Under the pieces are notes generated by a model, which saw nothing but the letters and a program-made list of their open reading frames with translations, was not told the origin of the DNA and ran no database searches. A stretch of DNA of 64,000 nucleotides from Candidatus Thalassarchaeum betae (GTDB lineage Archaea; Thermoplasmatota; Poseidoniia; Poseidoniales; Thalassarchaeaceae): the NCBI GenBank assembly GCA_003193925.1, contig PSPG01000004.1, forward strand, positions 1 through 64,000, given 5' to 3'. Numbering within the stretch: position 1 is the first letter of the stretch; every line of letters begins with the position of its first letter. Positions 5,231 to 56,998 of the stretch are shown one piece after another. The position numbers and the translations under genes were made by a program.

Positions 5231-6163
5231 GTGAGCCGTGCTGCATTATTCCTGACCAATGACGACGGCATTGACTCCGCCGGGTTGCACTTGCTGATAG
5301 AGGCCCTACATGCTCGTGGGCACCCGTTGGTAGTGCTGGCTCCGGCCAGCGAGCAGTCCTGCTCGGGAATGCGCCTGACTTTGAGGCACGACCTGGAGTT
5401 CGAGGAGAGGGAGGACATCGCTAACTCCCTCCGAACCGAGGGCGGCCCCCCTCTCAGGATATTCTCGCTGGACGGGTCTCCTTGTGACTGCGCAATAGTC
5501 GCTTTGGATGGGGGACTGCAAGTCTGGGCTCCTGAGATTAAACCAGCGATGTGTGTCTCCGGCATCAATCAAGGCCCGAACCTTTCTGTGGACGTCCTAC
5601 ACTCCGGGACCGTATCCGCAGCCCGTGAGACCTCGCTCTATGGATTGCCGTCAATCGCAATCAGTCTCGCCACCTACGAGCACTCGGAGTTCTCTCAGAC
5701 CGTCGAGGCCTCTCTCGGCATCATCGAAGCCTGCTTGACCGTTCTGCCCGAGGAGCCAGTGAACCTGAGGCGACCCGAGGGCAGCCGCAGGAAACCGCTC
5801 TCAGAAGGGCCGATGGGAGCGAGGGCCCGCTCTGCCTTCGCCCATGGCGATATGTTCCTGAACATCAACGGCCCCGAGTCTTGGAACGGTGAGTTGCAAA
5901 CCGTCTCTCTCGGCTCTAGATGGTACCACAATGCCATCGACATGAAGGACACCAAAAACATCGGCGTCGCATTCGAAGTAGGGGCTGCGACGATCGAGGA
6001 CGAGGACATTCCTGGTACTGACTGCAACGCCGTCAACTCCGGCGCCGTCGCAATCACGCCACTATCCTCCTGGCCTGTGAACCATCCCCTGGGACTCAGC
6101 GGCGAGCTGCTGTCCGCAGCCACTGAGCAGGGTGTTTTCGGACTGCCGTCCTGGCTCGAATGA
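5231..6163 (+). CDS. surE: SurE 5'/3'-nucleotidase
   Basis: SurE-family phosphatase that dephosphorylates nucleoside 5'- and 3'-monophosphates with a divalent metal. The N-terminal metal motif FLTNDDGID (residues 7-15) and the signature GINQGPNLSVDVLHSGTVSA (about 114-133) hold the expected Asp, Asp, Ser and Asn ligands. Its 310 residues are longer than the usual 250-270, mainly through a basic insert near residues 180-200 (RRPEGSRRKPLSEG). It starts at GTG 5231, 22 bp after the permease gene. Its TGA abuts the TCA (reverse-strand stop) of TrmY with no base between. Confidence 0.93.
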   Translation: MSRAALFLTNDDGIDSAGLHLLIEALHARGHPLVVLAPASEQSCSGMRLTLRHDLEFEEREDIANSLRTEGGPPLRIFSLDGSPCDCAIVALDGGLQVWAPEIKPAMCVSGINQGPNLSVDVLHSGTVSAARETSLYGLPSIAISLATYEHSEFSQTVEASLGIIEACLTVLPEEPVNLRRPEGSRRKPLSEGPMGARARSAFAHGDMFLNINGPESWNGELQTVSLGSRWYHNAIDMKDTKNIGVAFEVGAATIEDEDIPGTDCNAVNSGAVAITPLSSWPVNHPLGLSGELLSAATEQGVFGLPSWLE

Positions 6164-6751
6164 TCACCCATCCAGAAGATGGTGCACTATTGCGATGCAG
6201 GCATGTCCTTGAAGCCACTCCGTGCCGATAGATAATCTCTGACAGGCGCACAGTGCATTGTTTTCCTTATCGCTGAAAGGCAGGTGATCGGAGAGTATGA
6301 ATCCAACCGGGGCGTCTTGCAAGGCCTCATCGAAACTACTTCCAAGTGAGTCGAGGACGTACGTGTTGACGCCTTCTCTGCTCCATTCCCCCAGCGTGTC
6401 AGAAAGGCCCCCTCCGGAGTGGGATATCCCACTCGAGACTTCCTCCCAAGTGCCAATCGGAGGAATCTGGCGCTTCATGATCGAGCGTATGTGACCGGCT
6501 ATCGATCGTTCATCGGGGCGGACCCCCCTGAGTGTGCTCCCATCGAACCAGACTCTTCTGAGGGGGCCTTGGCCACCTGTCAGGTGCAAGGTGATGTGTG
6601 AGTCCCTCCGTATTCCATGAGACAAGAACAGCGCGGTGTTGACAGCCCTGACCAGAACATCCATCCTTCCCGAACCTCCGGCTAGGTCATTGAGCCTCAA
6701 ATCGCCCGAGCTTAGTGCATCGTGACCAATGATGGCGAAGCGCCGTTGCAC
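6164..6751 (-). CDS. trmY: tRNA pseudouridine-54 N1-methyltransferase TrmY
   Basis: SPOUT-class methyltransferase converting pseudouridine 54 to m1-pseudouridine in archaeal tRNA with S-adenosylmethionine. Family signatures are the N-terminal RFAIIGHDA, LNDLAGGSGRMDVLVRAV, LSHGIRRD, PDERS and the knot region VGFILSDHLPFS. The 195-residue length is typical. GTG at 6751 lies 4 bp after the SRP54 stop, so it is the second gene of an srp54-trmY unit. Confidence 0.93.
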   Translation of the reverse strand: MQRRFAIIGHDALSSGDLRLNDLAGGSGRMDVLVRAVNTALFLSHGIRRDSHITLHLTGGQGPLRRVWFDGSTLRGVRPDERSIAGHIRSIMKRQIPPIGTWEEVSSGISHSGGGLSDTLGEWSREGVNTYVLDSLGSSFDEALQDAPVGFILSDHLPFSDKENNALCACQRLSIGTEWLQGHACIAIVHHLLDG

Positions 6752-6755
6752 GACT

Positions 6756-8979: not shown

Positions 8980-9045
8980 GATCATACTATTGAATCAGCC
9001 TCCTGCTCTGCGTTTCGCAGGTTATCGGACATGCTGATGGCGCAG

Positions 9046-10500: not shown

Positions 10501-12084
10501 ATGCGCTGGGACGTTGTCGGTCTCGTACTGGGATGGACGATTCGACTGATTGCCCTACCTCTTCTCGTCGTTGCCACCTACAGTAGCTATCTTGAGGCCG
10601 AGGGCGTCGAATACGCCGCCAAGACCTACCTCCCCTCTTTTGCCCTAGCTCTTATCATAGGCCAGTCACTGGTATCCTTAGCCCGGAATAGGGACGCGGC
10701 CAACAGAGTCAGGGACCGCGAGGCCTTCGCCTCTGTCGCTCTGGGCTGGATCCCGGTTGTCGCCGTCGGCGCTCTGCCCTACTGGCTGGGCGGCATGTTC
10801 TACGGCCCCTTGGAGCTTATGGCGGGTGAAGCGACCTTCCTGGAGATCCTCCGCGGCTTGCTGCACTCGTGGTTCGAGTCCATGTCTGGCTTCACCACCA
10901 CGGGAGCCAGTGTGATCGACCCACTGACCAGTCCAGTCTGCACCGAGTTAGTGGACGATTGCATCGGGAGCCAGAATCGTAGCCTGATCCTATGGCGTTC
11001 CATGACCCAATGGCTCGGCGGAATGGGAGTGATAATGCTTGGACTGCTCATTCTGTCTCGTGTCCTCGGCGGGGGGATGTCCCTTGCCAGGGCTGAGCTG
11101 ACAGGCCCTTCCCTGTCCCGTCTGGGCCCGACCCTGCAGTGGACTGCTCGGCGTCTGTGGATGATCTACGTGGTGCTCACCGTCTTGGAGATGGGACTTC
11201 TCCACTTCCTAGGCGGCATGGGCGTCTTCGATGCGGTCAATTACTCACTGACCACAATGCCCTCGGGAGGATTCGGCACCTCAGATGGCGGAATCATGGG
11301 ATTCGAATCCGCTAGGATCGAAGTCATACTGATGGTCTTCATGTTGTTGACCTGCATCAATTTCAGCCTCCTTCACCTCGTTCTGGCTGGACGGTCCAAG
11401 GATGCCTTGAAGGATGAGGAGCTTCGCACCTACCTGCTGATTCTGTTCGTTGCATGGCTCGCTATGGCATTCAACCTGTATAGGGCGGGCACGAACGGGG
11501 GTACTGAGGAAATGGCTCCCCTCGTGGCTATCAGGCAGGCTTTATTCCAAGCCATATCGATTTCAAGCACCGGCTACTCCAGCGCTGACTTCACCACTTG
11601 GCCGGTATTCAGCCAGTTCGTCCTCCTGCTGCTGATGATAATCGGTGCCTCCGCTGGTTCTACAGGTGGGGGTCTCAAGGTGCTTCGAATCAGGATAGCC
11701 TTCGAGTTGGCTAAGAGGGAGGTGCTGAAGATCATCCAACCTCGCCAAGTCATTGCGATTCGCTTCAACCAGCAGGTCATAGAGGAGAGGAAGATCTGGA
11801 TAGTCCTCGGAATGCTCAGTTCGTGGATGGTTCTGGTGACGGCCTCGATGCTGGCCATCTCATTCCTCGAGCCCTCTCTCGAGATGACCGACGTTTTGTC
11901 CATCTCCATATCCCTGCTGGGTAACACCGGTCCAGCCCTAGGGGCCTTCGGCCCCACGGGCACATGGGCCACTCTGAGCGAGCCCAGTATGATAATCGCC
12001 ACGATGCTGATGTGGCTAGGCCGTCTCGAGCTGCTGACAGTATTGGTCCTGCTCCACCCTAGGACATGGTCCGGTTCTAAGTGA
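10501..12084 (+). CDS. trkH: Trk potassium transporter membrane subunit TrkH
   Basis: A 527-residue ion-conducting subunit of the SKT superfamily. The four pore loops and selectivity-filter glycines are visible: FTTTGAS (first), MPSGGFGTS (second), SSTGYSSADF (third) and LGNTGPALGAFGPTG (fourth). The intramembrane gating loop of the third repeat is the GASAGSTGGGLK stretch. ATG 10501 follows the trkA stop by 2 bp, so the pair is one operon. Its TGA abuts the reverse-strand stop of the RFC-L gene exactly. Confidence 0.95.
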   Translation: MRWDVVGLVLGWTIRLIALPLLVVATYSSYLEAEGVEYAAKTYLPSFALALIIGQSLVSLARNRDAANRVRDREAFASVALGWIPVVAVGALPYWLGGMFYGPLELMAGEATFLEILRGLLHSWFESMSGFTTTGASVIDPLTSPVCTELVDDCIGSQNRSLILWRSMTQWLGGMGVIMLGLLILSRVLGGGMSLARAELTGPSLSRLGPTLQWTARRLWMIYVVLTVLEMGLLHFLGGMGVFDAVNYSLTTMPSGGFGTSDGGIMGFESARIEVILMVFMLLTCINFSLLHLVLAGRSKDALKDEELRTYLLILFVAWLAMAFNLYRAGTNGGTEEMAPLVAIRQALFQAISISSTGYSSADFTTWPVFSQFVLLLLMIIGASAGSTGGGLKVLRIRIAFELAKREVLKIIQPRQVIAIRFNQQVIEERKIWIVLGMLSSWMVLVTASMLAISFLEPSLEMTDVLSISISLLGNTGPALGAFGPTGTWATLSEPSMIIATMLMWLGRLELLTVLVLLHPRTWSGSK

Positions 12085-13605
12085 TCAGAAGGAGTCCAGG
12101 GAGGACTGCGCGCCGCTCAGTCCTTCCCCACCTGAGTTCGCGTCCGGCTCCTGCGTGTCTGACAGCTCATCAATCTGCAACCCTTGCCCTTCATTCTCCT
12201 CGAATGCCGCGAGGATTTTCTTGGCTTCCCTCCTGCTTCTTGGGATGCCATGCATGGCGAGGTGGTCCTCTCCTCTCAGTCCCAGGTGTTTGGCGACTGC
12301 GAACTCGTCAGGGTCCCCGCCCAGGGTCGAGTCGTGTACGGCCAGTAGGTTGGGCCAGAGGTCCTCCCTGATGGATGCCTTGCTAGTCCCGAGGTCGTCG
12401 GATAGATGCTCGACCACAGTACTCGTCCGCCATGCCTCTGCACCTATGCGAAGGAAGTCAGGGTAAGCTAGGAAAGGATCTGTCCCGGTGTCGATGGGAG
12501 CATGGGCGACGGCTGCTTGAGCAGACAGTGCCGAGCCCCAGTACCAGGATCTGAAGGCTCTGTTGGTGAATTTGGTGGCTAGTGATCTGTCGGCCTTGCA
12601 CATGGCCGGGCTGATGGCTGCGAGTACGTCCGAATCGAACAGGGTCTGGTTGTTCCACGCGAACCAGGCAATCATCTCGTCAGGATTCTTGTCCGATGCC
12701 ATCAGGATACGCCCCGCTTGCTTACCGGACCGGCTATTGTAGACGTCACGTAGGGCCCTGAACACATCGATCTGCGAATCTCTTCTAGCCACTGCAGCCA
12801 GATCCTCAACAGCCGATATTCCGATGTGTCCCTCACTGAGTACGCATACTGCCTGCAGGTCCCTCACCAAGGCCCGCAAATCCCCCGGATTGCCGTCTAT
12901 TAGGGCTTCTAGGGCCTCTGGGTCCATGTTCCTGCCCTCGGCATCGAGGACCCGGTGCGCGACGCGCCTGAGGTGCAGTTTCCCAACCCTACTGAAGTTG
13001 ACTAACTCAGCCAGCCTTAGGAGCCTGTCCCTGTTCCTCCTCCAGCTCCTGCCTCGGCCCCACAGCCTCATCGGGTCATTGCAGGTCATGATGACGGGCT
13101 GCTGGGTAAGATTAAGCAGATTCAGCAGTTCTGCTTTCCCGCCCGAATCCCCCTTGAGCACAAGGGCGTCTTCCTCGAGATTCATCACGTTGTCCACTCT
13201 TTCGTCGGAGATCTTGGCGAAGCCACCGCTCAGATGGTCGACTTCATCGAGCAAGATCAGAGTCCTGCCACTGGGAATCCCGTCCCCGGAGAACTGGTCG
13301 AGCGAGATGTGCTGGGAGCCCTGTGTTGCAGATCTCCTGATAGCAGCCGCGTTCCTCTCCCCGGAAGCGTTCAGCTCTATCATCGTCCAGCCTCTCTCGA
13401 GGGCTGCTGCTCGAGCCAGTGTTGTCTTGCCGACTCCGGATGGGCCGGAGAGCAGTAATCCGCGCTTCTCAGGAGGTTTGCCGCCCTCCCATTGATCGAG
13501 CCAGTGCCTGATCTTCCTGAGCTTTGATTCGTTGCCCTCCATCAGGCCCAGGGTCTCTGGACGGTGCCTCTCGGTCCAATCTTCTGGCTCTCGCTGTCCT
13601 ACCAC
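12085..13605 (-). CDS. rfcL: Replication factor C large subunit
   Basis: Large subunit of the archaeal clamp loader, which opens and loads PCNA using ATP. The AAA+ core has RFC box W-T-E-R-H-R-P, Walker A GPSGVGKTT (residues 54-62) and Walker B LILLDEVDHL; a helical collar and an acidic tail follow. The last seven residues QSSLDSF fit a minimal PIP box (Q-x-x-L-x-x-F), the usual PCNA contact of archaeal RFC-L. Translation starts at GTG 13605, 38 bp after the GlyRS stop, suggesting co-transcription. The small subunit is not in the window. Confidence 0.94.
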   Translation of the reverse strand: MVGQREPEDWTERHRPETLGLMEGNESKLRKIRHWLDQWEGGKPPEKRGLLLSGPSGVGKTTLARAAALERGWTMIELNASGERNAAAIRRSATQGSQHISLDQFSGDGIPSGRTLILLDEVDHLSGGFAKISDERVDNVMNLEEDALVLKGDSGGKAELLNLLNLTQQPVIMTCNDPMRLWGRGRSWRRNRDRLLRLAELVNFSRVGKLHLRRVAHRVLDAEGRNMDPEALEALIDGNPGDLRALVRDLQAVCVLSEGHIGISAVEDLAAVARRDSQIDVFRALRDVYNSRSGKQAGRILMASDKNPDEMIAWFAWNNQTLFDSDVLAAISPAMCKADRSLATKFTNRAFRSWYWGSALSAQAAVAHAPIDTGTDPFLAYPDFLRIGAEAWRTSTVVEHLSDDLGTSKASIREDLWPNLLAVHDSTLGGDPDEFAVAKHLGLRGEDHLAMHGIPRSRREAKKILAAFEENEGQGLQIDELSDTQEPDANSGGEGLSGAQSSLDSF

Positions 13606-18500: not shown

Positions 18501-20849
18501 GGTGGCACACCGGGCAGATGGAAGAAGACAGGGCTTTCGGATCCACTGGATTGCCTTCGTCTGAAACTGCTGGACATGCTGGGTTCAGAGGGTCCGCAGA
18601 CAGCCGTGACGCTCTGCGAGAGACTGCCTTTCCCCCCTGCCCAAGTCGACTCCGTGCTGCAAGAGCTCGAGATGAGGAACCTCGTCTCAATCGGCTTCTT
18701 CAAGCAGACTGACGATGGTGAGTACATCCTCCGGATGGATGAGTACAGAATCACTGGCGGAGAGGTGGATGTAGTCGATTACAGGACCCTGCAGTCGCTT
18801 CTCCTCCAGAAGTCGTTCACGAGGTATGACGAGCCTGCTGAGGCGATGAGGGCCCTTATCCTCATCCAGCGGCGTGATGAGCTGCTGCACAGGGTCCGCA
18901 ACTACAGGTTCAGGGACTGGAAGGACATCAAGCACGACCCGGACGTGTTCAATGGCAGGCTCTTGCACAATCGGGTCGGTTACACGCTCAAGGATCAGAT
19001 ACCCATCTTGCTAGGCCTACGCAACGAGCCATGGCTCGGCTCTCTTGAGGAGGAGCTGCTTGAGAAGATCCCAGAGAGTGGACTCACAAGGGCCGAACTT
19101 TTCTCCGATTACCCCAAAGGGAAGGAGAACGCTCACATCCAGAGAAGCCTCAAGAGCGCTCTCAATAATCTGGAGAGGCAGCTCGTCGTCGCCAAGCAAT
19201 ACATCGAGGTACCCAACAAGAAACGCTCCCTCGCCGTATTCCATAGGATCCACGGCATCATAGAGCCGCTGTCGTTCGACGACGCCCTCGTGGCCCTTAT
19301 CAACAGGATAGGGCCAATCCGTCTCCACACTCTGAGGTTCTTCGTAAGTAAGCCCGTGGAGGACCTAGCTGACGCTCTGAGAAGCTTGGAGGATGCGGGC
19401 AGGATCATCCGCGTCGTTGCATTACAGCCCGATCCCACGGACTATTACTCTTCCAAGGAAGATTCCGAGCAGCTACTTTCCATGATGCCCGAAGACAGGA
19501 AGATGAGGATACTGTCCCAATCCGACCCCTTCTGCAGCCGCTTCATACACGAGGTACGGCTGATACTCAAACAGGGTTGGTATCACCCCGTCTTCAAGGG
19601 TGTTGATCCAATAGGGCGGATCTTGATGTTCGTGGTCAACGACTACCTCGAGATCAAGGACATCAACATCCCCCACTCTTACCTAGACGAGTTCAAGGCT
19701 ACCTTCTCTACGCTCTTGGACAACTACAGGGACAGGCTCGTTGACGTCTCAGTCTTGCATGCCTTCAACGGTGTTCCAGTCCATGATTGCGACGACAGCA
19801 TACAGCAGATTCTATCTGACTTGGGCTTCTCCTCGATGGGCGACGAAGAGAGGTACATCCGAGGTGGGGTGGTCGAGCCCCGCTCGAGGAGGGAGGTCAA
19901 CCGTCTGTTGTTCTACCATCACAAGATGCATCAGGACAGCAGACTGGAGAACGAGATCATGGCACTCCAGGAGATGAGTGAGTTGCGTGATGACTTTGCC
20001 CTGAGGGGCAGGTGTGAGATGTTTCGGGTCAACCTACATTCGATGGCTGCTGCGCATCAGCTGCATCAAGGCACTAATCTGAGGGGGCATCAGGTATGGG
20101 CCAAACTGCAGCATTTCCAGCGGCTTCTCACTATCAGGAACGTCCATCCCGCTGAGGAGGACGTTGACATTCTCCAGTTCTTCAAGGAGCATCACGATCC
20201 GGCTATCTTCATGGAGAGGCACGCCATGAGGCGGGCTGAGTTCCGTAAGTTGATCTCGCCACTCGTTCGTAGCGGCCATCTGGTTCAGGACTACAGAGGT
20301 GGATTCAAGACGGTGGCGCCGATGCAGAGCACTGATCTCTGGCAGGTCAAGAGGGATTACCTTAGGGAGCTTGTGAAGGACTACCCGGTGATCTCTCTCA
20401 GCCAGGTCGAAAGGCTGGCCGGCTCTCCGTTCTCTGCTGAGGAGATCAGCGACGTCATGCACGAGTTCGAGGAGGACGAGACCCTGATCAAGGGCTTCCT
20501 AGTCGACGACCTCCAAGACATCTGCTGGGGTCGCCGGGACCTTCTCGAGGGGCTGAAGGGAATCCGTAAGACTCGTGATCTCGTCGTGCCTCCGTCCGAC
20601 CTCCTGATCCACTACTTCGGAGGCCTCCTCAGGGAGAGATTCGCCTTCGGCTCGGCATACATGGTGTTCCACAATGAGGAAGCGATTGCTGCCTTCAAGG
20701 CCAATATGAGGGGCGGCACTATCGAGGTGACGGACTTCGTAGGCGACTCGGAGCTCGAGAAGGAGGCTCTGAGGGTGATGAAGGAGTTCGCATGGGAGCA
20801 CGACATGCCGCTCACGGGCAAACTGTACGAGAAGCTACGCTCACGCTGA
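15558..20849 (+). CDS. lhr: Giant Lhr-type superfamily 2 helicase
   Basis: ATP-dependent 3'-5' DNA translocase of the Large-helicase-related family. Walker A is SPTGSGKT (residues 56-63), motif II DEMH (about 179-182), motif III SATMEP, and motifs V-VI STSLELGIDIG and ALQRLGRASHQVG. The Lhr-specific winged-helix and beta-barrel region follows. At 1763 residues it is about twice a usual archaeal Lhr (around 850-950) and longer than E. coli Lhr (1538). The long C-terminal part has several winged-helix-like stretches (for example residues 1480-1640 and ICWGRRDLL near 1655), as in bacterial Lhr C-terminal domains related to AlkZ. By inference it acts in DNA repair. ATG 15588 is an alternative start. 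Its end overlaps the archaeosortase gene by 9 bp. Confidence 0.9.
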   Translation: MPEIEYIEDRMETQELLDILSPPVRNWFVDKFPDFTEPQKIAIPRILNGEHLLLCSPTGSGKTLTAFLTIIDDLVRRSLDDTLPDTVQCVYISPIKALANDIQKNLIGPLTEIKERFLPSRAKDIKIGLRTGDTPQNEREKMLRRPPHILITTPESLGLILASKRWRPHLKDLKWMIIDEMHSLVPTKRGTLLSLSLALMDTVVSSEVQRIGISATMEPLDDVAEFLVASDPRESDKEPQRISIANVSGSREIDLDIILPTARFSSIPIKEILDHNIDRIKELVEAHTTTLVFVNTRNMTETVVQRLKIAGLEGVEGHHGSMDKTIRLDVESRLKNGLLRAVVSSTSLELGIDIGSVDLVIQVGSPGSISTALQRLGRASHQVGGIPRARFLPTSPHDLLELVAVQTGILRGSMDLLKFPENCLDVLAQFMIGLSIIREWDIDEGYELVTSSWPYRSLPYEDYIEVLDLLDEERRIWVDWEENRFGKRGFAQMIYYTNIGTIAPDNNYLVFTSDGTLVGQLSSSFVSSLRYGDVFLLGGSTYRVSSVRGTRVNVTSATGYRPTIPSWTGEAMSRTHELSQEILELLGHVALRQRLGDDVKPLLTDVLGLSRPVASALSEFFEEHCATTFQVPSRDRILVEQVEAPLPTYIVTTCRGRAFNMALGYLFAGIASADDVIVHELSFDENGFMAKLSHEVEVSRIPEIFRNGKSGDTLQRFLMDSQLFTKRFREVASRSMLNPRRIGGDEVSPKQFQQKAEQIMQKHRKMDDSIIVREVMNEILHTDLDMEQLDDFISRMDSEDVRIVHRKVKMPSPLGMTLFMSSFEDLLSLRTRAFLIKDVDPEILRRLLGARSLATDLDEGKLNDYYQSKVSVPLNANALLKLMDMGGGLEPTLTNPLYSDKLSNIDFDVMQGWVYELAERGLVTKIRNTGHKQIDDKWFSMRMAGVHGTLGCLAVAGAAEMDDLRELYTGGLTFEMGMDFEGGTPGRWKKTGLSDPLDCLRLKLLDMLGSEGPQTAVTLCERLPFPPAQVDSVLQELEMRNLVSIGFFKQTDDGEYILRMDEYRITGGEVDVVDYRTLQSLLLQKSFTRYDEPAEAMRALILIQRRDELLHRVRNYRFRDWKDIKHDPDVFNGRLLHNRVGYTLKDQIPILLGLRNEPWLGSLEEELLEKIPESGLTRAELFSDYPKGKENAHIQRSLKSALNNLERQLVVAKQYIEVPNKKRSLAVFHRIHGIIEPLSFDDALVALINRIGPIRLHTLRFFVSKPVEDLADALRSLEDAGRIIRVVALQPDPTDYYSSKEDSEQLLSMMPEDRKMRILSQSDPFCSRFIHEVRLILKQGWYHPVFKGVDPIGRILMFVVNDYLEIKDINIPHSYLDEFKATFSTLLDNYRDRLVDVSVLHAFNGVPVHDCDDSIQQILSDLGFSSMGDEERYIRGGVVEPRSRREVNRLLFYHHKMHQDSRLENEIMALQEMSELRDDFALRGRCEMFRVNLHSMAAAHQLHQGTNLRGHQVWAKLQHFQRLLTIRNVHPAEEDVDILQFFKEHHDPAIFMERHAMRRAEFRKLISPLVRSGHLVQDYRGGFKTVAPMQSTDLWQVKRDYLRELVKDYPVISLSQVERLAGSPFSAEEISDVMHEFEEDETLIKGFLVDDLQDICWGRRDLLEGLKGIRKTRDLVVPPSDLLIHYFGGLLRERFAFGSAYMVFHNEEAIAAFKANMRGGTIEVTDFVGDSELEKEALRVMKEFAWEHDMPLTGKLYEKLRSR

Positions 20850-24723: not shown

Positions 24724-24933
24724 GTGTCGGAGTCACGAGAGAGGATTCCCCGACGCCCCCTTCCTGACTTTGAGGAGTCAGAGGAGGGTATGAAGAAGGC
24801 GATAGCCGAAGCCGGATTCCTCAACGTCGCGTTGAACGACGTCAATCAGTACGGCCCTCACGCGATGGTGATGCTCCTAGGCATCTTCGCATCCCTGACG
24901 GGGTTGATACTGCTATTGCTGATGCTGCTCTAA
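24724..24933 (+). CDS. Small C-terminally anchored membrane protein, unknown
   Basis: A 69-residue protein with a charged N-terminal half (RERIPRRPLPDFEESEEGMKK) and a strongly hydrophobic C-terminus (GIFASLTGLILLLLMLL). That layout suggests a tail anchor with the N-terminal part in the cytoplasm. It starts at GTG 24724 behind its own TATA-like box. Its stop TAA overlaps the purB stop by 4 bp in convergent orientation. No family was recognised. Confidence 0.55.
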   Translation: MSESRERIPRRPLPDFEESEEGMKKAIAEAGFLNVALNDVNQYGPHAMVMLLGIFASLTGLILLLLMLL

Positions 24934-31774: not shown

Positions 31775-32611
31775 ATGAGCGACGACTCCTCCGATGTCGA
31801 ATTAACTCTCCTCGAGTGCGATATGGCGATCCTTCAGCAGATGCTCTTCGATGGAAACACTTCCGCGGCTATAGAGTTCTCCGAGGGGCTATTGGAGCGT
31901 TCGAGATCCAAGGAAGAGAGGGATGCCAAATCAGAAGTTAGGATAAGGATGGAGAGGGCCCTCATCGGGGCTGTTGACTTGTCCCTGGTGGGTGCTGAGT
32001 TACGTTGGTGCACTGACCGGCTCAAAGCCTTGCGTCAAGGCTCTTTCTTACATGGGATAGCCCTGCTTAACCTCGCTGCATGGCACCGCAATCTAGGCGA
32101 GACGATGATGGCGCTGGCGACCCATGCTGAGATTTCGCCTTCCAGTGGCCATCCGACTGAGATTCGTGGTCTATCCAGACTGGAAGCAGGCAGGATCATG
32201 ATCGGGTTGAATGACCTAGACCCTGCCATGCGGCACCTTTGGACGGCTAGGGAGTGTCTTTCTCAGTGCGGTCTCACGACAGAGGCCCTAGCATCTTCGC
32301 TGGAATGGCTGGATCTTGCTTTGGAGGAGATAGTGGAGGAATCTCCACGAATGAGTGAGAGGCTCGCTCAAGCTGCTCCCCGAGAGGGGGCCGGCTCGAC
32401 TTGGGTACCCGCAAATCCCGAAGACGTCAGAGAGGTCGTCGAGGCGTTGATTCCTGTGCTATTGGCCGATGTCTCAGGTAATGAACGCAGTGATATCGGA
32501 CTTATTCTAGATGCTTCCGATGTCCTGGGCGAGGATTCGTGGCATCAACTGGTCTCGGAAAGGATATCTGAGATTCAGGATCCGAAGGTCTGCGAAGCTC
32601 TCCAATCGTGA
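31775..32611 (+). CDS. Unknown helical repeat protein
   Basis: A 278-residue acidic, mostly alpha-helical protein. Stretches such as GIALLNLAAWHRNLGETMMALATH and RLEAGRIMIGLNDLDPAMRHL (shortened here) look like degenerate TPR helix pairs. No catalytic motif or membrane segment was seen. It follows prefoldin beta by 9 bp, so it is probably the last gene of the exosome-prefoldin operon. Its last 37 bp overlap the convergent Nudix gene. Confidence 0.7.
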   Translation: MSDDSSDVELTLLECDMAILQQMLFDGNTSAAIEFSEGLLERSRSKEERDAKSEVRIRMERALIGAVDLSLVGAELRWCTDRLKALRQGSFLHGIALLNLAAWHRNLGETMMALATHAEISPSSGHPTEIRGLSRLEAGRIMIGLNDLDPAMRHLWTARECLSQCGLTTEALASSLEWLDLALEEIVEESPRMSERLAQAAPREGAGSTWVPANPEDVREVVEALIPVLLADVSGNERSDIGLILDASDVLGEDSWHQLVSERISEIQDPKVCEALQS

Positions 32612-41404: not shown

Positions 41405-41737
41405 ATGTCTGATTCTGACGTCATTGAGCAGTTCCAACGGTGGCTGCAGGCAAGATTGGCCATTTCTGAGGAGATCGTGGATCCATCTGAGAGGCAGAGG
41501 GCTGCTCTTCAAGTCGAATCGGCCATCCAACTCGCTATTCAATACCGCGATGTGGTGGACATGACGCCCGAGAACATAGCTCCTCCGTTCGTGGAGAGGG
41601 AGGATTCAGTGAGGATTATCTCAGATGACGAATCCATAAGATCCTCAGGGAGACAAGACGCCATAATCTGTCAGAAATGCGATGCTGAAATGACCGATGA
41701 CTTGGAATTCTGCCCTGCTTGTGGAGAGTACCCCTGA
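41405..41737 (+). CDS. Small zinc-ribbon protein, unknown
   Basis: A 110-residue acidic protein with a helical N-terminal part (DVIEQFQRWLQARLAISEEI) and a C-terminal zinc knuckle pair CQKC...CPAC (about residues 89-107). No catalytic motif is visible; such ribbons usually bind protein or RNA. It stands alone between the divergent IPK gene and the convergent KptA gene, whose stop abuts its own. Confidence 0.7.
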   Translation: MSDSDVIEQFQRWLQARLAISEEIVDPSERQRAALQVESAIQLAIQYRDVVDMTPENIAPPFVEREDSVRIISDDESIRSSGRQDAIICQKCDAEMTDDLEFCPACGEYP

Positions 41738-42427
41738 TTACTCTTCTTCGGCCCAATGGACTCTCGCCAATTCATACTCCGGATGGTCGTTAGGCACGGT
41801 ACTGAGATACTTCCCCGGCACGAATTCGGCGAGATAGACGGTTATACCTGCGTGCCAGACGGTCTCACCAGCAGCTACCAGTCTAGCAGTATCAACTTCG
41901 AGCAGGGTGGGAATTGCGTGGTGGATATGACCCGCTTCTGCGGCTGAGCGTATGTTCGCCGAGAGATGCACATGGGCTCGGCCACTGGGGCTAATCCCGA
42001 CCTCAATCAAATTTTCATACTCATCCGGTGAGCAGGGATAGTAAAGCGCGTCGGGGATGTTGTCGGTTGGCAGGTCCAGTTCAATTTCTACTGTATGGGC
42101 GTAGGTAGCGCGAATCACGTTCCCTCGGACTTCATACCTTCCCTTGGGATCTGTCTCGGAAATAGCATGGATGTGGTGAGGTCTGAGCCAGTGGTAACGT
42201 CTCTCGTTGGAGCCCTTGAACTGCCTAACGATGTCCTTGACGTCAATCCACCCGTTGATGTCCATCTCGAGATCAAACTTCTCCGGAGCGTGTCTGAGGA
42301 CGAGGGCTAGACGCCTAGCCATGCTGTCCCTCTCACCCGTTCGCATGATGAATCTCCCCTCGGAGTTACACGCTGGGCACAAGTTGTCATCGGCGTAGTA
42401 ACCATGATTCGAACATTCCCTAATCAT
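41738..42427 (-). CDS. kptA: RNA 2'-phosphotransferase KptA/Tpt1 with N-terminal zinc ribbon
   Basis: NAD-dependent enzyme that removes an internal 2'-phosphate from RNA, as on spliced tRNA, producing ADP-ribose 1'',2''-cyclic phosphate. Core motifs are LALVLRHAPEKF (about residues 40-51), GWIDVKDIV, the IRATYAHTV strand and GISPSGRAHVHLS, carrying the Arg-His-Arg-Arg set. The histidine in IRATYAHT replaces the usual GHS context. A zinc-ribbon-like N-terminus with CSNH...CPAC (residues 5-20) precedes it. 229 residues. Confidence 0.88.
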   Translation of the reverse strand: MIRECSNHGYYADDNLCPACNSEGRFIMRTGERDSMARRLALVLRHAPEKFDLEMDINGWIDVKDIVRQFKGSNERRYHWLRPHHIHAISETDPKGRYEVRGNVIRATYAHTVEIELDLPTDNIPDALYYPCSPDEYENLIEVGISPSGRAHVHLSANIRSAAEAGHIHHAIPTLLEVDTARLVAAGETVWHAGITVYLAEFVPGKYLSTVPNDHPEYELARVHWAEEE

Positions 42428-42542: not shown

Positions 42543-43676
42543 ATGAAGACGGTCATCATTGATTGGGCCCGCTCACCGTTCGACAGGGCCCACAAGGGAG
42601 GCTTGGCCGGTGTTCGTCCCGATGACATGGCCGGCCAGGTCACCAAAGCCCTGATTGACAGGAGCGGGATAGATCCCGGTGCGTTCGACGACCTGCTGAT
42701 GGGTTGTGGTTATCCTGAAGCCGAGCAGGGTTACAACATCGCAAGGCTGGTGACCTTCCTAGCAGGTATGCCAGACACAGTTCCAGGTGTCACCATCAAC
42801 AGGCTGTGTGGCTCTTCTATGCAAGCAGTCCTGTCAGCTGCAGCTCAGATCGAAGCCGGTTGGGGAGGTTGCTTCCTGTGTGCAGGCACCGAATCGATGA
42901 GCAGGGTTAAACGCCGCGGCTTCAACTGGAGTCCTCATCCCGGATTGGAAGAGGGTTGGCCTGACGCATACGTCACTATGGGCCAGACAGCAGAGAATGT
43001 CGCCGCACGTTGGTCCATTACCCGTGATCAGCAGGAGCGCTTTGCGCTCGCTTCCCATCAGAAGGCCGCGTCTGCGCGGGAATCCGGGTCATTCGATGAC
43101 GAAATAATCCCTATTTCGAATGGTGACAACACCGTCTCTGAGGATGGTTGTATCCGACCCGGTACCACCTTAGAGGCAATGTCTGAACTTGTCCCTGTAT
43201 TCTCCGATGACGGAACCGTGACGGCTGCCACCTCTTCCCCTCTCACCGATGGAGCAGTCGCTATGATCGTATGTAGCGAGGAATTCGCGTCTGACCACGG
43301 CTTGGAGCCAATGGCCAGAATAATCTCCGGTGCAGTAACAGGGTGTCCCCCAGAAATCATGGGTATAGGCCCAGTTGAGGCCACCAGAAAGGTATTAGAG
43401 CGAACTGGTTGGGATATTGATTCCATCGATATCTTCGAGCTTAACGAGGCATTCTCTTCTCAGAGCTTGGCAGTCATCGATGAACTTGGACTGGACCCAA
43501 CTAAGGTCAACCTCGAGGGGGGCGCTCTCGCTATCGGCCATCCCTTAGGTGCTTCTGGTGCGAGAATTACCGGTAAGGCAGCGAGTCTGCTCGCAAGAGC
43601 TGGCTCAGGCCGAGCGATCGCCACCATGTGTATCGGCGGGGGCATGGGCATAGCGATAGCTTTGGAAAACTCGTGA
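42543..43676 (+). CDS. Acetyl-CoA acetyltransferase / 3-ketoacyl-CoA thiolase
   Basis: A 377-residue thiolase with a complete active site: nucleophile Cys89 in NRLCGSS, NEAF, GGALAIGHPLGASG with the catalytic His, and the second Cys in TMCIGGGMG. This complete set marks a true thiolase rather than the archaeal sterol-carrier-type homologue paired with HMG-CoA synthase. It could act in fatty acid oxidation or make acetoacetyl-CoA; no other oxidation gene is nearby. ATG 42543 gives the family N-terminus; the upstream in-frame extension has no match. Its stop abuts the next gene's. Confidence 0.9.
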   Translation: MKTVIIDWARSPFDRAHKGGLAGVRPDDMAGQVTKALIDRSGIDPGAFDDLLMGCGYPEAEQGYNIARLVTFLAGMPDTVPGVTINRLCGSSMQAVLSAAAQIEAGWGGCFLCAGTESMSRVKRRGFNWSPHPGLEEGWPDAYVTMGQTAENVAARWSITRDQQERFALASHQKAASARESGSFDDEIIPISNGDNTVSEDGCIRPGTTLEAMSELVPVFSDDGTVTAATSSPLTDGAVAMIVCSEEFASDHGLEPMARIISGAVTGCPPEIMGIGPVEATRKVLERTGWDIDSIDIFELNEAFSSQSLAVIDELGLDPTKVNLEGGALAIGHPLGASGARITGKAASLLARAGSGRAIATMCIGGGMGIAIALENS

Positions 43677-44237
43677 TTACTCTTCTTCATAGAATACGAG
43701 TTTCGAGTTGCAGCTTGGGCATCGGTCCCCCGGTGTCATTCTACTTGGATAGATGGCGAGGATGCTCGAACATCCCGGACATGTAGCCAACATCTCACCA
43801 CTTCCATTGGTTAATCCTCCAGAATCGCCGAGAGCATCGCTTCCATACCATTGTGTGTATACGGGATTCCTCATTGTGGGAACTCTTCTAAGGGTCACGG
43901 CCCCCAGCAGTAATAGTAAGAGTCCTTGGAGGAATCCTGAGTCTCCCTGCGTCATCGAGCCCCATACCCAGATGAGGCCAATCAACAAGAATGCTGATCC
44001 GATCAACGATAGCGAGCTGATTCCAAGGATAATACCATAGTGGGTACGTTTGAACATGGACACAACAGTGGCTATTCCAAGAGGAAACAGAATCACACTG
44101 AGAATCAGAGCGAATATCTTCTGTGACGCACTCCACGAGGACAGTAGTGATACGACTATCACTGCAATTATAATCAAATCTAAGGCGATGAAACGAATCA
44201 GATGGCGGTGCAACTGCTCCATCCGTCCGCGTGGCAT
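43677..44237 (-). CDS. Membrane protein with C-terminal zinc ribbon, unknown
   Basis: A 186-residue protein with four hydrophobic segments (roughly residues 16-35, 40-62, 68-92 and 98-112) and a soluble C-terminal zinc ribbon CPGC...CPSC ending in EEE. No family was recognised. The start is ATG 44237 or ATG 44222. The former overlaps the most upstream ATG of the divergent CoaBC gene, so one of the two starts is probably further inside. Confidence 0.65.
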   Translation of the reverse strand: MPRGRMEQLHRHLIRFIALDLIIIAVIVVSLLSSWSASQKIFALILSVILFPLGIATVVSMFKRTHYGIILGISSLSLIGSAFLLIGLIWVWGSMTQGDSGFLQGLLLLLLGAVTLRRVPTMRNPVYTQWYGSDALGDSGGLTNGSGEMLATCPGCSSILAIYPSRMTPGDRCPSCNSKLVFYEEE

Positions 44238-45556: not shown

Positions 45557-47077
45557 ATGGCGGGTTCAGGCAAGGCCAAGAGGGGTATCCCTCCTAAGTC
45601 AGACCTCAATGCCTGGTACCCTGCCATAGTCGAAATTGCCGACCTCGTGGACAAAAGGTATCCAATCAAGGGGATGGATGTCTGGAAGCCTTACGGCTGG
45701 AAGGCCATGACACTAATAGATGGGCTGACTCGGTCACAAATGAGGCGCACTGGTCACGAGGAATACAATTTTCCTCTGCTTGTACCCGAGGACTTGCTCG
45801 ATAAAGAGAATCAGTTGGTTTCCCACCTCAAGGCCTCTAGGGACACTGGGATCGATGCTTCTGAATTGAGGGTGGATGAAGAAGAAGCCGGATTCAAGAA
45901 AGAAGTGTACTGGGTGAAGCACGGAGGCGATACCGAACTTGAGGTTCCCATGTTCTTGAGACCTACTTCCGAGACTCCGATGTACACCATGTTCTCGCTG
46001 TGGGTCAGAAGCCACGCTGACTTGCCGTTGAAAACCTTCCAGATAGTGAATACCTTTCGATACGAAACCAAGCAAACCCGGTCGTTCATTAGGGTGAGGG
46101 AGATTCACTTCTTCGAGGCACACACGGTTCATGCGGACCAAGATGGAGCTACCGCACAGATTGCCGAAGACGCTGAAATCGTCCAGCGCCTGCTACATGA
46201 GTTGTGCTTTCCGGCGATTGTCTCCAAACGGCCCTCTTGGGACACCTTCCCTGGAGCATGGCACTCTACCGCCGTAGACGCCGTGATGCCTAACGGCCGA
46301 ACATTGCAAGTCGCTACGTACCACCATTATCGCGATCAATGGGCTCGGGCATTCAACCTCACTTACGAGGATAGAAACGGTGAAACCCAATTCTGCCATC
46401 AGACCACATTCGGCATGTCCGAGCGTCTTCTGGGTGCCATCGTTGGTATGCATGGTGATGACAGCGGTCTGATCATGCCCCCCTCCATCGCACCGATTCA
46501 AGTCATCCTGATGCCTGTCGCAGCTCATTCCGACGAGAATGTGATACCCCGAGTGGAAGCTCTCGCCTCGCAGCTACAAGATTCCGGATTCAGAGTCCAA
46601 GTCGATGCCCGTGACTTACGTCCCGGAACTAAGCACTACGATTGGGAGATTAAGGGAGTTCCAATACGTCTAGAGATTGGCCCTCGAGATCTCGCTTCAA
46701 GCCAATGCACTATTACTCTGAGAACCGGAGGCAAGATTGAATCTCCCCTAGAAGGAATCTCGTCCACAATCCGCCAGTACCTAGATTCGGTCTCCGATGA
46801 ACTCCGCTCCAGAGCCCACGCCCATGCCTCGGAGTTGATTCGCACCTTCCCCGGCCTTTCCCAGACCGCGGACATATGGAAACTCGACGCGGCATTGGAG
46901 GAGGGTTTCGTCTACGAACTCGCCTTCGATGGCAATGACGCCGACGCCGAAGTCCTCGAAAAGGCCACTGGATTGACCTTGCTCGGGGATTGCGTCCAAC
47001 CCTATCCCGAGCCGATTCCATGCGCAGTAACGGGAAAACTCACGACACGTAGGCACCATCTCGCGCGAATGTACTGA
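45557..47077 (+). CDS. proS: Prolyl-tRNA synthetase (archaeal/eukaryotic type)
   Basis: Class II synthetase of the type without the bacterial editing insert. Motif 2 region FRYETKQTRSFIRVREIHFFEAHT is present (about residues 170-193), as are the prolyl pocket block LRPTSETPMYTMFS and the anticodon-binding domain with IRLEIGPRDLA. A C-terminal zinc-type domain ends in a conserved tyrosine (RMY), as in archaeal ProRS. 506 residues from ATG 45557. Its stop abuts that of the next gene. Confidence 0.96.
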   Translation: MAGSGKAKRGIPPKSDLNAWYPAIVEIADLVDKRYPIKGMDVWKPYGWKAMTLIDGLTRSQMRRTGHEEYNFPLLVPEDLLDKENQLVSHLKASRDTGIDASELRVDEEEAGFKKEVYWVKHGGDTELEVPMFLRPTSETPMYTMFSLWVRSHADLPLKTFQIVNTFRYETKQTRSFIRVREIHFFEAHTVHADQDGATAQIAEDAEIVQRLLHELCFPAIVSKRPSWDTFPGAWHSTAVDAVMPNGRTLQVATYHHYRDQWARAFNLTYEDRNGETQFCHQTTFGMSERLLGAIVGMHGDDSGLIMPPSIAPIQVILMPVAAHSDENVIPRVEALASQLQDSGFRVQVDARDLRPGTKHYDWEIKGVPIRLEIGPRDLASSQCTITLRTGGKIESPLEGISSTIRQYLDSVSDELRSRAHAHASELIRTFPGLSQTADIWKLDAALEEGFVYELAFDGNDADAEVLEKATGLTLLGDCVQPYPEPIPCAVTGKLTTRRHHLARMY

Positions 47078-47941
47078 CTATTCTTTCTTACTGAACAGTC
47101 CGAGCAGGGTCATCAGGCCGAATAGCATGAGGAAGGCCCCGTCGATCAATTCCCCAGTGCCAGAAGAGGTCCAGGACTCTATGGATCCGTAGTCGGAAGC
47201 CTTCTCCCACAGCAATCTGGTGTGGTCCTCGCACATTGGCTGGCTTGGGGAAACGGATGCCAAAGTCGAAACTGTTGAGGAGTCGCCTATGCACCCATTT
47301 GCCTCGGAAACTTTCACACTCTCTTCGTAAAGTGAAGATATGAAACACCAAGGGGCTGTAGTGACACTTCGATGTTCAGTATGGGCGTATGAATCCAGAG
47401 AGGATGTCCAATTGTGGAAACCAGCGTCAACCACTTCGCTTGACCCATTCTGGGAAATGGACCACTGGATACTGTAGCTGGTCGATAGATTTAGGTTGGC
47501 AACGGTCCATGTGACATACAGTGTGCTGTCCTGCTCATTCGCGGTGACGGTGAAGCTCAGTGGGTCGGGTTCCAAGTCATCCACGCAAAGGGGCAGGAAT
47601 TGGCCGATTCCTACGGCGACATTGACTCCGACCAATGAAGCCCCGATCAATCCAATCAAGAGTACGAACCATCTCCGGCGCGGGCTGTCAGAGGCACCCT
47701 CTCCATCCAAGTCTTCGGGATCTCCTTCGAATCCCGGGAGTTCTACCCCAAGATTGTCACCCTCCGCATATACAGGTGGATGGACCTCAGGAGGCCGTTC
47801 GGGCGCTGCAACACCCATCTCCTCGAGTGCCTCACGGCCATAGATGCGCTCTGCGAGTGCGTAGAGCTCAGTGTCACCCTCCAACTCGGTTGGATCCATG
47901 GTCCCGTCAAGCAGCCCCTTGACACGCTCGGAATCGCTCAT
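47078..47941 (-). CDS. Membrane-anchored exported protein, unknown
   Basis: A 287-residue protein. The acidic cytoplasmic N-terminus (about 90 residues, rich in E, D and P) is followed by RRR, a membrane segment (WFVLLIGLIGASLVGVNVAV), a presumably external domain of about 140 residues and a second hydrophobic segment (GAFLMLFGLMTLLGLF) before SKKE. The external domain has four Cys and several N-glycosylation sequons (NLS, NGS, NWT), and reads like a fibronectin-type beta fold (LYVTWTVANL). No known family was identified. Confidence 0.65.
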   Translation of the reverse strand: MSDSERVKGLLDGTMDPTELEGDTELYALAERIYGREALEEMGVAAPERPPEVHPPVYAEGDNLGVELPGFEGDPEDLDGEGASDSPRRRWFVLLIGLIGASLVGVNVAVGIGQFLPLCVDDLEPDPLSFTVTANEQDSTLYVTWTVANLNLSTSYSIQWSISQNGSSEVVDAGFHNWTSSLDSYAHTEHRSVTTAPWCFISSLYEESVKVSEANGCIGDSSTVSTLASVSPSQPMCEDHTRLLWEKASDYGSIESWTSSGTGELIDGAFLMLFGLMTLLGLFSKKE

Positions 47942-51128: not shown

Positions 51129-51923
51129 ATGTCATGGCAGGAAGTACTGGGCAGGGTCGCTTTCACAAACTGTGATCCAATATTCCATGGTCTCAAGGAT
51201 AAGTGGAAGATACTTCCCGCTCCGCCTGCTTGGCTGACGGGACACGTTCTCAGGCGAGACTGTCTCACCGCTCCGATTCCTGCGGCCGACTATGCCAAGC
51301 ATTCAGTCAAACTCGACCTAATTCCCAATCTAGGGATAGTCAGCACAGGAAACGTTGGCTCTGCGCTCTTATTCGGCTCTCGCTCACCCGAATCCATGAG
51401 GGACATAGCATTGCCGTCAGACTCGTCTACTTCAAAGGCCCTCCTTCGTTGGGCCCTCATCCGTCGAGGGTTAGATCCCAAGTGCATCGAGATGGGGCCT
51501 GATATCGATGCTATGCTATCCATCTGCGATGGCGCTTTGCTGATAGGTGACAGAGCGCTTGCAGCAGCCGCAAATAATCCTGAATTGGTCAAACTAGACC
51601 TAGGTGCTGAATGGACGAATCAGACCGGCCTGCCTATGGTGTTCGGGGTCTTTGCAGTCCGTAAGGACGCACCTGTCGATAAGGTTAGACAGGCTCATTC
51701 GGATATGTTAGAGCAGTACAACAAGTTTCTCGGCGATCAAACCTGGAAGCTCGAAGTCATCAGGTTCTCCGCTGATAAGATGGGTTTCACGGAGAACAGG
51801 ATCTCTGATTACTTCGATAACGAAGTGAGAAATTCATTAGACGGAGACGCAGTCATGGGACTGGAGTTGTTTCTCTCTGAAGTATGCGGTATGGAAAAAA
51901 AGCCATCTTGGGTCGAGCTCTGA
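51129..51923 (+). CDS. mqnA: Chorismate dehydratase MqnA
   Basis: First enzyme of the futalosine pathway, dehydrating chorismate to 3-[(1-carboxyvinyl)oxy]benzoate. It has a periplasmic-binding-protein fold. Family blocks are VAFTNCDPIFHGL, LDLIPNLGIVSTGNVGSALLF (split), SSTSKALLRWAL, GALLIGDRAL and LGAEWTNQTGLPMVFGVFA. 264 residues from ATG 51129. It forms an operon with mqnE. Its stop abuts that of mqnD, encoded convergently. Confidence 0.9.
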   Translation: MSWQEVLGRVAFTNCDPIFHGLKDKWKILPAPPAWLTGHVLRRDCLTAPIPAADYAKHSVKLDLIPNLGIVSTGNVGSALLFGSRSPESMRDIALPSDSSTSKALLRWALIRRGLDPKCIEMGPDIDAMLSICDGALLIGDRALAAAANNPELVKLDLGAEWTNQTGLPMVFGVFAVRKDAPVDKVRQAHSDMLEQYNKFLGDQTWKLEVIRFSADKMGFTENRISDYFDNEVRNSLDGDAVMGLELFLSEVCGMEKKPSWVEL

Positions 51924-52784
51924 TTACCCCTTTGAACCTATGAATCTCAGAGTTTCGACATCCATATCTCCTCGCACTAATCCTATCCTCTGGCCCTCCG
52001 ACAGGAACAGGCGTATCCCCTCCCGCCCGTCCGCACCGTAATCGATAGTCCTCTGATTGACGTACATGCCGACGAATTCCCTGTTGGTATCGTCGTCTAT
52101 TCCGCGACCCCATGCCTTAGAGAATTCTAGTGCAGCGTCTGGATCTTCCAGTGAATGCATGATGCTCTCTCTGACATCAGAGGTCAGTTGAACGCACAAT
52201 TCTTCCCCCAGATCCTTCCGGACCACATTCCCCCCCAGGGGCAGAGGAAGGCCCGTAGTCTCGTTCCACCAAACTCCTAGATCCAGCACCAGATGGACAC
52301 CGTCTTTAGCCCAAGTCAGTTGCCTCTCGTGAATGATCAATCCGACCTCATACTCGCCTTTCAACACCCGGGGTAGTATCTCATCAAAGGGGACGACCTT
52401 GACTCTAACATCGCCCCAGGCCAACCTCAAAGCTAGGTATGCACTGGTACCCAATCCGGGAATTGCGATTTTCTTCCGCTTTGCCTCGTCCTCATTAAGC
52501 ACGGTCTTTGAGATCAGAATAGGACCATATCCCTCTCCCATCGAAGCACCACAGTTCATGAGGTGATATCGATCTGAAATTCTGGGGAATGAATGTATGC
52601 TGACCGCGGAAATTTCGTACCTGCCCTCAAGTGCATGTCGATTCAGTGTCTCGATATCCAGAAGCACGTGCTCGTAACTCCTTCCGGGTGTCTCGAGCGA
52701 GCCTGAGGTCAAAGCGTGGAACATGAATGCATCATCGGGATCAGGAGAGTGCCCAACGCGAATTCTCCTGCTCTCGTCCTGCAC
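51924..52784 (-). CDS. mqnD: 1,4-dihydroxy-6-naphthoate synthase MqnD
   Basis: Futalosine-pathway enzyme converting cyclic dehypoxanthine futalosine to 1,4-dihydroxy-6-naphthoate. The N-terminal GHSPDPDDAFMFHAL (residues 11-25), DIETLNRHALEGRYEISAVS and GLIIHERQLTW (with the catalytic His near 155) are family signatures. 286 residues from GTG 52784. It is convergent to mqnA, so the three mqn genes touch but belong to two transcripts. MqnC and MqnB are not in the window. Confidence 0.92.
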   Translation of the reverse strand: MQDESRRIRVGHSPDPDDAFMFHALTSGSLETPGRSYEHVLLDIETLNRHALEGRYEISAVSIHSFPRISDRYHLMNCGASMGEGYGPILISKTVLNEDEAKRKKIAIPGLGTSAYLALRLAWGDVRVKVVPFDEILPRVLKGEYEVGLIIHERQLTWAKDGVHLVLDLGVWWNETTGLPLPLGGNVVRKDLGEELCVQLTSDVRESIMHSLEDPDAALEFSKAWGRGIDDDTNREFVGMYVNQRTIDYGADGREGIRLFLSEGQRIGLVRGDMDVETLRFIGSKG

Positions 52785-54320: not shown

Positions 54321-54393
54321 CTCCGATATCTTAGGCTCCCTCAATCACAGAATATTGAATAGTGTAGAGGTTCGGAATCGTATTGTGGGGATT

Positions 54394-55140: not shown

Positions 55141-55144
55141 ATGC

Positions 55145-55939
55145 GTGGGACTACTCGAGAAGGCAGGCAAGATTCAGAGTGAGGATGAGGCAGTTCCTGC
55201 TGCCGAGGACGACGCTCCAGCCACTGTGGTCCTACCGGATCCCAAACCCGTCAAAGAGAAGTCTGCTAAGAAGTCCAGGTTGCGCAGGGAGAAGAAGCCG
55301 AAGAAAGCGACGAAGGAGAAGAAGGTCCGAACGCCTAGAGTCATGCCCGATGGTTTCGATGCGGCCACTAGAGGTCAAGCAGTTCTCCGTCGATTCGTCG
55401 ATTTCCTAGTCAGCTATGGATGGTCAGTCCCCTTGATTGCGATAACGGCATGGGGATCATATTTCAATCCGACACCGATCGTCATTCTTGGTCTCGCACT
55501 AATGTTCCTCAATCTAGTGGTTGTGCCCAGAAACAGCGGTAGGACCATTGGGAATTGGGTCAGCCGAACCAGTTACGTCAATACTCGCGGAAACTCTCCT
55601 TTCTATGCCTATCCCGCGCTGAAGGGCCTGACTTTCATCTTCGTGATGCTAGGCCTTTTCACCGTTTTCTCTTTCACTTCGCAAGGTATGCCGGAGTCGG
55701 ATCTCGGGAAGGTCGGTACCATCGGTGGAATGCTGGTTCTCTTACCACCACTAGTCGATTGGCTGATGAATAGATTTGGCTCTTCGGATCAAGGTCTGTG
55801 GGAAACCCTGTTTGGAGGGGTCTGGCTCGTTCGAACTACCAAATCTGACGATGCCAAAGGTTTCTGGAAGCGCCTCGAATCCATCGCCGACTACACTGAA
55901 TCGAAGGGTTTACTCGAGGACGAATCGGGCACTGAATGA
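55145..55939 (+). CDS. Membrane protein with long basic N-terminus, unknown
   Basis: A 264-residue protein. The N-terminal 75 residues go from acidic to strongly basic (EKSAKKSRLRREKKPKKATK), a likely cytoplasmic or nucleic-acid-contacting segment. Four or so hydrophobic segments follow (for example SVPLIAITAWGSYF, PIVILGLALMFLNLVVV, GLTFIFVMLGLFTVFSF and GTIGGMLVLLPPLVDWL) and a soluble acidic C-terminus. GTG 55145 sits 4 bp after the previous stop; an ATG at 55121 would overlap the previous gene by 20 bp. No family was recognised. Confidence 0.65.
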   Translation: MGLLEKAGKIQSEDEAVPAAEDDAPATVVLPDPKPVKEKSAKKSRLRREKKPKKATKEKKVRTPRVMPDGFDAATRGQAVLRRFVDFLVSYGWSVPLIAITAWGSYFNPTPIVILGLALMFLNLVVVPRNSGRTIGNWVSRTSYVNTRGNSPFYAYPALKGLTFIFVMLGLFTVFSFTSQGMPESDLGKVGTIGGMLVLLPPLVDWLMNRFGSSDQGLWETLFGGVWLVRTTKSDDAKGFWKRLESIADYTESKGLLEDESGTE

Positions 55940-56998
55940 TTACTCTGACTCAGAATCCTCATACCGCTGCTTGGCTAACGCCCTCATGTCCTCGTGGTGG
56001 AACCCGTTATCAATCGCCTCTTGATCAGATTCGTCTACAATCTCCACTCCCAGCAGCGTTTCTATAACGTCCTCCATAGTAATCAATCCAACGGTTCCTC
56101 CAAAGTCGTCGTTGACGATGAGTAACTGTACCTTATTCTCTAACAGCACATCCAGGGCCTTATCCACCGAGTCATCGTGCCTGCAATGAAAGACCTGACG
56201 AGAAATGCTCTCCATAGAACTGGAGTGGTCATCGACGGCAGCTCTACGAAGAATCTCGTTTCGGAGAACCATTCCTCGCACGTCATCGATGCTTTCCCCG
56301 ATTAGGGGCATGCGTCCATAGATCATTATTGGCATCCTCTCTAACACATCAGAGACGCTCTCCTGCTGGGAGACGGTCGTCATGACGACCCTAGGGGTCA
56401 TTACGTCACTGACCATAATCTCACGAAGACGCAGCAAGTTCTGTATGACGGTCTCTTCATCTTCGTCTATCACGTGAGTCTCCTCAGCTATATCAGCAAG
56501 AACAGCCAATTCGGTTCTGGTCATGGTCTCGCTCTGGGCGGCGGGCAACAATGAGCGGAGAATTTCGATCGGCCGGACAATGGGCCAAAGTGCGATTATC
56601 AATATTCGGAGCACCGTAGCCGATGGCACCGTGAGTCTCCTCCAATACAACGCGCCGATGGTTTTAGGCAGGATCTCACTTAACAGTAGAATCGCGATAG
56701 TCAGTATCGCTGAGGCTACAGCCACACTGTATTCTGGGTACACTTTCTGAACTTCGTATCCGACACCGAGTGCTCCGACGGTATGGGCCGTGGTGTTCAG
56801 AGTAAGTATGGCCGTGAGAGGGCGCTCGGGATCATCCTTGTAGCTAATCCATAATTCGCTGATTTTCGTATGGGTATCTTCCAGAGCCAAAATGTGGCTC
56901 CGCGTAGTAGACAAAAGGACTGCTTCCAATATACTACAGAGGAACGAGGCTCCCAATGCAAGCACTACATAGGAGATTATCAGCGTAAAGTCACCCAA
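55940..56998 (-). CDS. CNNM/CorC-type membrane protein with CBS domains
   Basis: A 352-residue protein of the DUF21-CBS (CorB/CNNM) family, linked to magnesium or cobalt efflux. The DUF21 membrane domain has ASFLCSILEAVLLS, NTTAHTVGALGVG and LLLSEILPKTIGALYWRR. A CBS pair follows, with VSDVMTPRVVMTTV and GGTVGLITMEDVIETLLG. A C-terminal CorC_HlyC domain, common in this family, is absent, so this is the short form. The first codon is TTG 56998, 135 bp from divergent metG. Confidence 0.88.
   Translation of the reverse strand: MGDFTLIISYVVLALGASFLCSILEAVLLSTTRSHILALEDTHTKISELWISYKDDPERPLTAILTLNTTAHTVGALGVGYEVQKVYPEYSVAVASAILTIAILLLSEILPKTIGALYWRRLTVPSATVLRILIIALWPIVRPIEILRSLLPAAQSETMTRTELAVLADIAEETHVIDEDEETVIQNLLRLREIMVSDVMTPRVVMTTVSQQESVSDVLERMPIMIYGRMPLIGESIDDVRGMVLRNEILRRAAVDDHSSSMESISRQVFHCRHDDSVDKALDVLLENKVQLLIVNDDFGGTVGLITMEDVIETLLGVEIVDESDQEAIDNGFHHEDMRALAKQRYEDSESE

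Follow-up and report, generated by a model that had tools for sequence, protein, structure and literature searches.

According to PMC2784483, which cites Kingsford et al. 2007, the modal spacing of convergent genes across 530 prokaryotic genomes is 0 bp, and the fine structure of the distribution near 0 is ascribed to the continual creation and elimination of overlaps. Overlaps, not abutting stops, are dealt with by Lillo and Krakauer 2007 (PMC2174442), in whose stop-codon-mutation model the longer overlaps arise when a gene runs on until it happens upon another stop, and whose 4-nt overlaps are CTAA, TTAA, CTAG and TTAG. As to transcript ends, aCPSF1 is the general archaeal termination nuclease (PMC7515710), and in Sulfolobus acidocaldarius the terminator lies in the coding region of the opposite gene for 52% of 301 convergent pairs (PMC7237163).

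The convergent genes analysed here are a strong instance of this known 0-bp mode, and their lineage is poor in spacer DNA. As in the account of Kingsford et al. 2007 given in PMC2784483, the mode is 0, 4-nt overlaps are many and close spacers are explained by stop loss, extension and repair; measured against that account, the exact-0 fraction is high here, at about a quarter of convergent pairs, and a phase-0 excess (at 3, 6 and 9 bp) is suggested only in the sister family (seven junctions at 3 bp) and not in the genome itself. The 4-nt overlaps have the same four forms as those of Lillo and Krakauer 2007, and the longer ones fit the same run-on model.

Convergent junctions in the window

The DNA analysed (the window; 64,000 nucleotides) comes from contig C19 in a draft genome that totals 1,479,542 bases over 23 contigs; among named organisms, the closest to it are Thalassarchaeaceae and other Poseidoniales (Marine Group II archaea). 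The window (1-64000) has a G+C content of 55%; for the 780 kb of the genome that were sampled, window included, the value is 60.6%. A sequence-only reading of the window had listed twelve convergent gene pairs, eight with exactly abutting stop codons and four with overlaps. The DNA letters match at 8/8 of the abutting junctions, and the ORF ends give overlaps of 9, 4, 37 and 15 bp. Convergent distances were counted with a gene caller of our own, which was tested on a RefSeq-annotated stretch of E. coli, where it agreed with the annotation at 7/8 convergent junctions and produced zero false distance-0 pairs. In the window it recovered 11/12 convergent junctions with identical distances and none additional; the junction at 43676/43677 was missed because the minus-strand gene, as called, shares 188 nt with the gene upstream of it.

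For most junctions Pfam domains are present on both sides. The eight distance-0 junctions, each read from the sequence, begin with the stops of SurE (+) and a SAM-dependent RNA methyltransferase (-) at 6161..6166 (TGATCA; Pfam PF01975 and PF04013) and those of TrkH (+) and an AAA+ Rad17-RFC-like ATPase (-) at 12082..12087 (TGATCA; Pfam). EF-2 (+) meets a Nudix-polyprenyl synthetase (-) at 38753..38758 (TAATCA; Pfam and orthologues); the latter, at 38756-40483, is one protein in which a NUDIX domain is fused to a polyprenyl synthetase, and its full length is conserved among family relatives. A zinc-ribbon protein (+) and Tpt1-KptA (-) abut at 41735..41740 (TGATTA; Pfam and orthologues), and a thiolase (+), identified by Pfam, abuts a 186-aa protein (-) at 43674..43679 (TGATTA). 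This minus-strand gene (43677-44237) is the least certain of the set and has no Pfam match; its full-length homologue in locus L175, 44% identical, shows that it is a real gene. Further abutting stops belong to a class II aminoacyl-tRNA synthetase (+) and a 287-aa protein (-) at 47075..47080 (TGACTA; Pfam and orthologues), to two converging VitK2_biosynth (MqnA/MqnD-type) genes at 51921..51926 (TGATTA; Pfam), which face each other end to end (51129-52784), and to a 272-aa protein (+), which has two homologues, and a CNNM-CBS protein (-) at 55937..55942 (TGATTA; Pfam).

The overlaps, placed by their ORF ends except where noted, are those of an Lhr-type helicase gene (+) with its facing gene (-) at 20841..20849 (9 nt; names from the earlier reading, in which the minus-strand gene is an archaeosortase), of a 69-aa protein (+) with PurB (-), so named in the same reading, at 24930..24933 (4 nt), of a 278-aa protein (+) with a Nudix protein (-) at 32575..32611 (37 nt; Pfam and orthologue comparison), and of MetRS (+) with a Tsr3-type ribosome biogenesis protein (-) at 59339..59353 (15 nt; ORF ends and Pfam). 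The 69-aa protein has one homologue, 52% identical.

Convergent distances in the genome, its relatives and control genomes

The claim that every convergent pair lacks intergenic space holds within the window (12/12) and fails beyond it. In our sample of the genome (780,429 bases of the 1.48 Mb draft, window included) 33 of the 116 convergent junctions keep more than 10 bp, and the remainder comprise 28 at distance 0, 14 at 1-10 bp and 41 overlaps, of which 16 are of 4 nt and 25 are longer, so that 69/116 lie at or below 0. Distance 0 is the most frequent convergent distance and -4 ranks second. No two stop codons can be combined into an overlap of 1, 2, 3 or 5 nt, as follows from the codons themselves, and 0 and -4 are therefore the two tightest permitted states.

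With the window left out, 21/105 junctions lie at 0, compared with 14 for the whole of +1 to +10, each single distance from 1 to 10 having at most 6; the excess at exactly 0 has P 9e-14 against a uniform distribution over 0-10. The tabulation of 0 against 1-10 bp that had been proposed as a check thus places 0 above every single distance in that range. The window is locally high, with 8/12 at distance 0 compared with 21/105 elsewhere (Fisher P 0.0015, the window having been picked after the fact).

Among relatives within the family (f1), 0 is again the commonest distance, with 21/107 junctions compared with 20 at 1-10 bp (P 6e-12) and 10/107 at -4; in the sister family (f2) it is also the commonest, with 8/47 compared with 16 at 1-10 bp (P 9e-4). 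Short positive spacers are in phase 0 in 13/21 cases in the sister family, 8/22 in the genome itself and 8/34 among the family relatives. Two further compact Thermoplasmatota have frequent distance-0 junctions (6/20 and 4/16), which are rarer in two more (2/27 and 0/13). As the mode of the genome, its family and its sister family, and a frequent distance in two other Thermoplasmatota, distance 0 is not a private mechanism. It was absent from small control samples of Streptomyces/Nonomuraea (0/32), Patescibacteria (0/12), other archaea (0/23), Lentisphaerae/Chloroflexi (0/17) and E. coli (0/8).

Stop codons and distances at orthologous junctions

The stop pairs at the 57 distance-0 junctions of the sampled genomes are mixed: TAA/TGA 24, TGA/TGA 15, TAG/TGA 12, TAA/TAA 4 and TAA/TAG 2. 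Same-stop pairs, which form palindromes, are fewer than expected (19/57, with 26.0 expected by shuffling; P 0.016), and these 57 junctions show no excess of one hexamer or of palindromes. Among the stops of distance-0 junctions TAA is over-represented in each of the three groups (34/114 stops overall) and TAG is low; as a guess, avoidance of palindromic restriction sites or an influence of the nucleotide that follows the stop may lie behind the TAA enrichment and the shortage of palindromes. No clear sequence beyond the stops is common to the surroundings of distance-0 junctions; a GAN last codon is weakly more frequent there (33%, compared with 25% in same-strand genes; P 0.054).

Convergent orthologous junctions shift among overlap, abutment and spacer. 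At the EF-2 junction (38755), compared in 57 relatives, the largest class is 0 bp (31/57), and the spacers found are 73, 52, 45, 40, 39, 37, 22, 21, 19, 8, 7, 5, 3, 2, 1 and 0 bp. At junction 47077 the end of the synthetase is constant and the stop of the facing gene is found at -99, -39, -14, -4, 0 and +1, with 7 distance changes among 28 taxa. The C-terminus of the protein at 47078-47941 varies in length and frame among relatives because its stop wanders within the facing aminoacyl-tRNA synthetase gene. The zinc-ribbon/Tpt1 junction (41737) is at distance 0 in 31/33 orthologous junctions (30/32 tree taxa), the sole distance change being one insertion common to two sister taxa; here the two stops changed at least five and at least seven times on the tree (about 12 in sum), with seven different ordered stop pairs. 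From the behaviour of these orthologous junctions it follows that the hexamer is not conserved, while the distance persists or shrinks. The 37-nt overlap of the 278-aa and Nudix proteins (32575-32611) has the identical length in 28/29 Thalassarchaeaceae taxa and is unusually stable for a long overlap.

Origin of the abutting stops and the ends of transcripts

We consider it very probable that the abutting stops mark the limit to which spacers can erode where a genome is compact. If small deletions outnumber insertions, or if streamlining favours them, dispensable bases between convergent stops would be lost until distance 0 is reached, the point where any further loss would destroy a stop and give a protein a tail that is encoded antisense. 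The next permitted step past 0 would be a 4-nt overlap (CTAG, TTAA, CTAA or TTAG), and longer overlaps would form where a gene loses its stop and is read on until another stop happens to occur inside the facing gene, some of these overlaps being undone later. Deletion bias or streamlining selection would then be the actual force.

A sequence-level simulation, in which real C-termini from the genome underwent random substitutions as well as short indels and any C-terminal extension was penalised, gave 28.0 : 16.9 : 13.0 for distances 0 : -4 : 1-10 (observed 28 : 16 : 14) at a deletion:insertion ratio of 6:1 and a strong tail penalty, parameters chosen out of about two dozen combinations in a small grid. 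At 1.5 deletions per insertion the spike at 0 was gone, and a weak tail penalty gave mostly overlaps and no spike. Within the terms of the model, the agreement demonstrates sufficiency and is not proof. The matching parameters fail to yield the 25 longer overlaps and the 33 longer spacers, which need other gene classes, whose C-termini are more tolerant or whose spacers have been kept, and the simulation does not predict the TAA enrichment at distance 0.

The suggestion that a special hexamer, palindrome or deletion process produced the junctions is not supported by the comparison. A specific deletion or recombination event that joins stop to stop at a palindromic hexamer, TGATCA for example, might be read from the window, where TGATCA accounts for 2/8 hexamers and TGATTA, or TAATCA as its reverse complement, for a further five; however, these hexamers are merely possible pairings of the three stop codons, palindromic pairs fall below the shuffled expectation, distance 0 outlasts stop changes on both sides, and the single orthologous Tpt1 junction carries seven ordered stop pairs at distance 0. 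We regard such an event as extremely improbable, and a plain deletion-biased walk yields a spike at 0 with no special process. It is equally hard to believe that gene calling or assembly created the pattern: the minus-strand gene at 43677-44237, without a Pfam match and missed by the caller, would speak for such an artefact, but the stops are read off the DNA, both partners usually carry Pfam domains, the same junctions are present in independent assemblies of other species, and the caller, which matched RefSeq at all but one E. coli junction, invented no abutting pairs there.

More weight, though still little, falls to the proposal that touching stops are selected for function, either as the shortest non-overlapping arrangement that prevents antisense tails or as a 3′ end signal, with stabilising selection keeping the distance at 0. 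The Tpt1 junction, with one distance change compared with at least 12 changes of stop identity in 32 taxa, and the TAA enrichment in all three groups would fit such selection, which we nevertheless think unlikely, since elsewhere, as at junction 47077, the distance moves freely to and from 0, the flanks have no clear common sequence and the facing gene no excess of U-tracts or AGATC, and the observed proportions come from erosion alone in the simulation. Less likely again is the fuller form of the idea, that Poseidoniales keep abutting stops by selection, for example as non-palindromic TAA/TGA pairs at colliding transcripts, and that these stops mark a way of forming 3′ ends that needs no signal in the sequence, since transcripts would be ended by convergent transcription itself.

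The absence of terminator room between the convergent genes of the window, as first read from the sequence, stands; there being no intergenic room, any 3′ UTR falls antisense inside the facing gene. The mRNA 3′ ends presumably lie within that gene and would be formed by the usual archaeal machinery. The contig that holds the window also carries the gene for aCPSF1 (TIGR03675 match, 783.6 bits, C19:121217-123112), and TIGR03675 is above cut-off in 20/21 family genomes. The geometry is compatible with known archaeal biology, given that S. acidocaldarius terminators sit in the opposite gene (PMC7237163). In the three groups, facing C-termini have no excess of U-tracts, T content, T-runs, pyrimidines or AGATC relative to the C-termini of same-strand genes, and neither the stop hexamer nor the sequence past it yielded a termination signal; the T-stretch and AGATC motifs reported for Haloferax volcanii (PMC7237163) are not enriched in the present case. 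Bacterial-type hairpin terminators in 37-56.5 kb are fewer than in shuffles (6 compared with 13).

The junctions pose a practical question about how a transcript ends where convergent genes have no spacer and no visible U-tract enrichment. The pattern itself is real, strong and ordinary, needing no special sequence or mechanism, and with erosion of spacers as the favoured explanation it provides a clean, countable example of the extent to which such erosion can go in a compact marine archaeon, with no new mechanism required.
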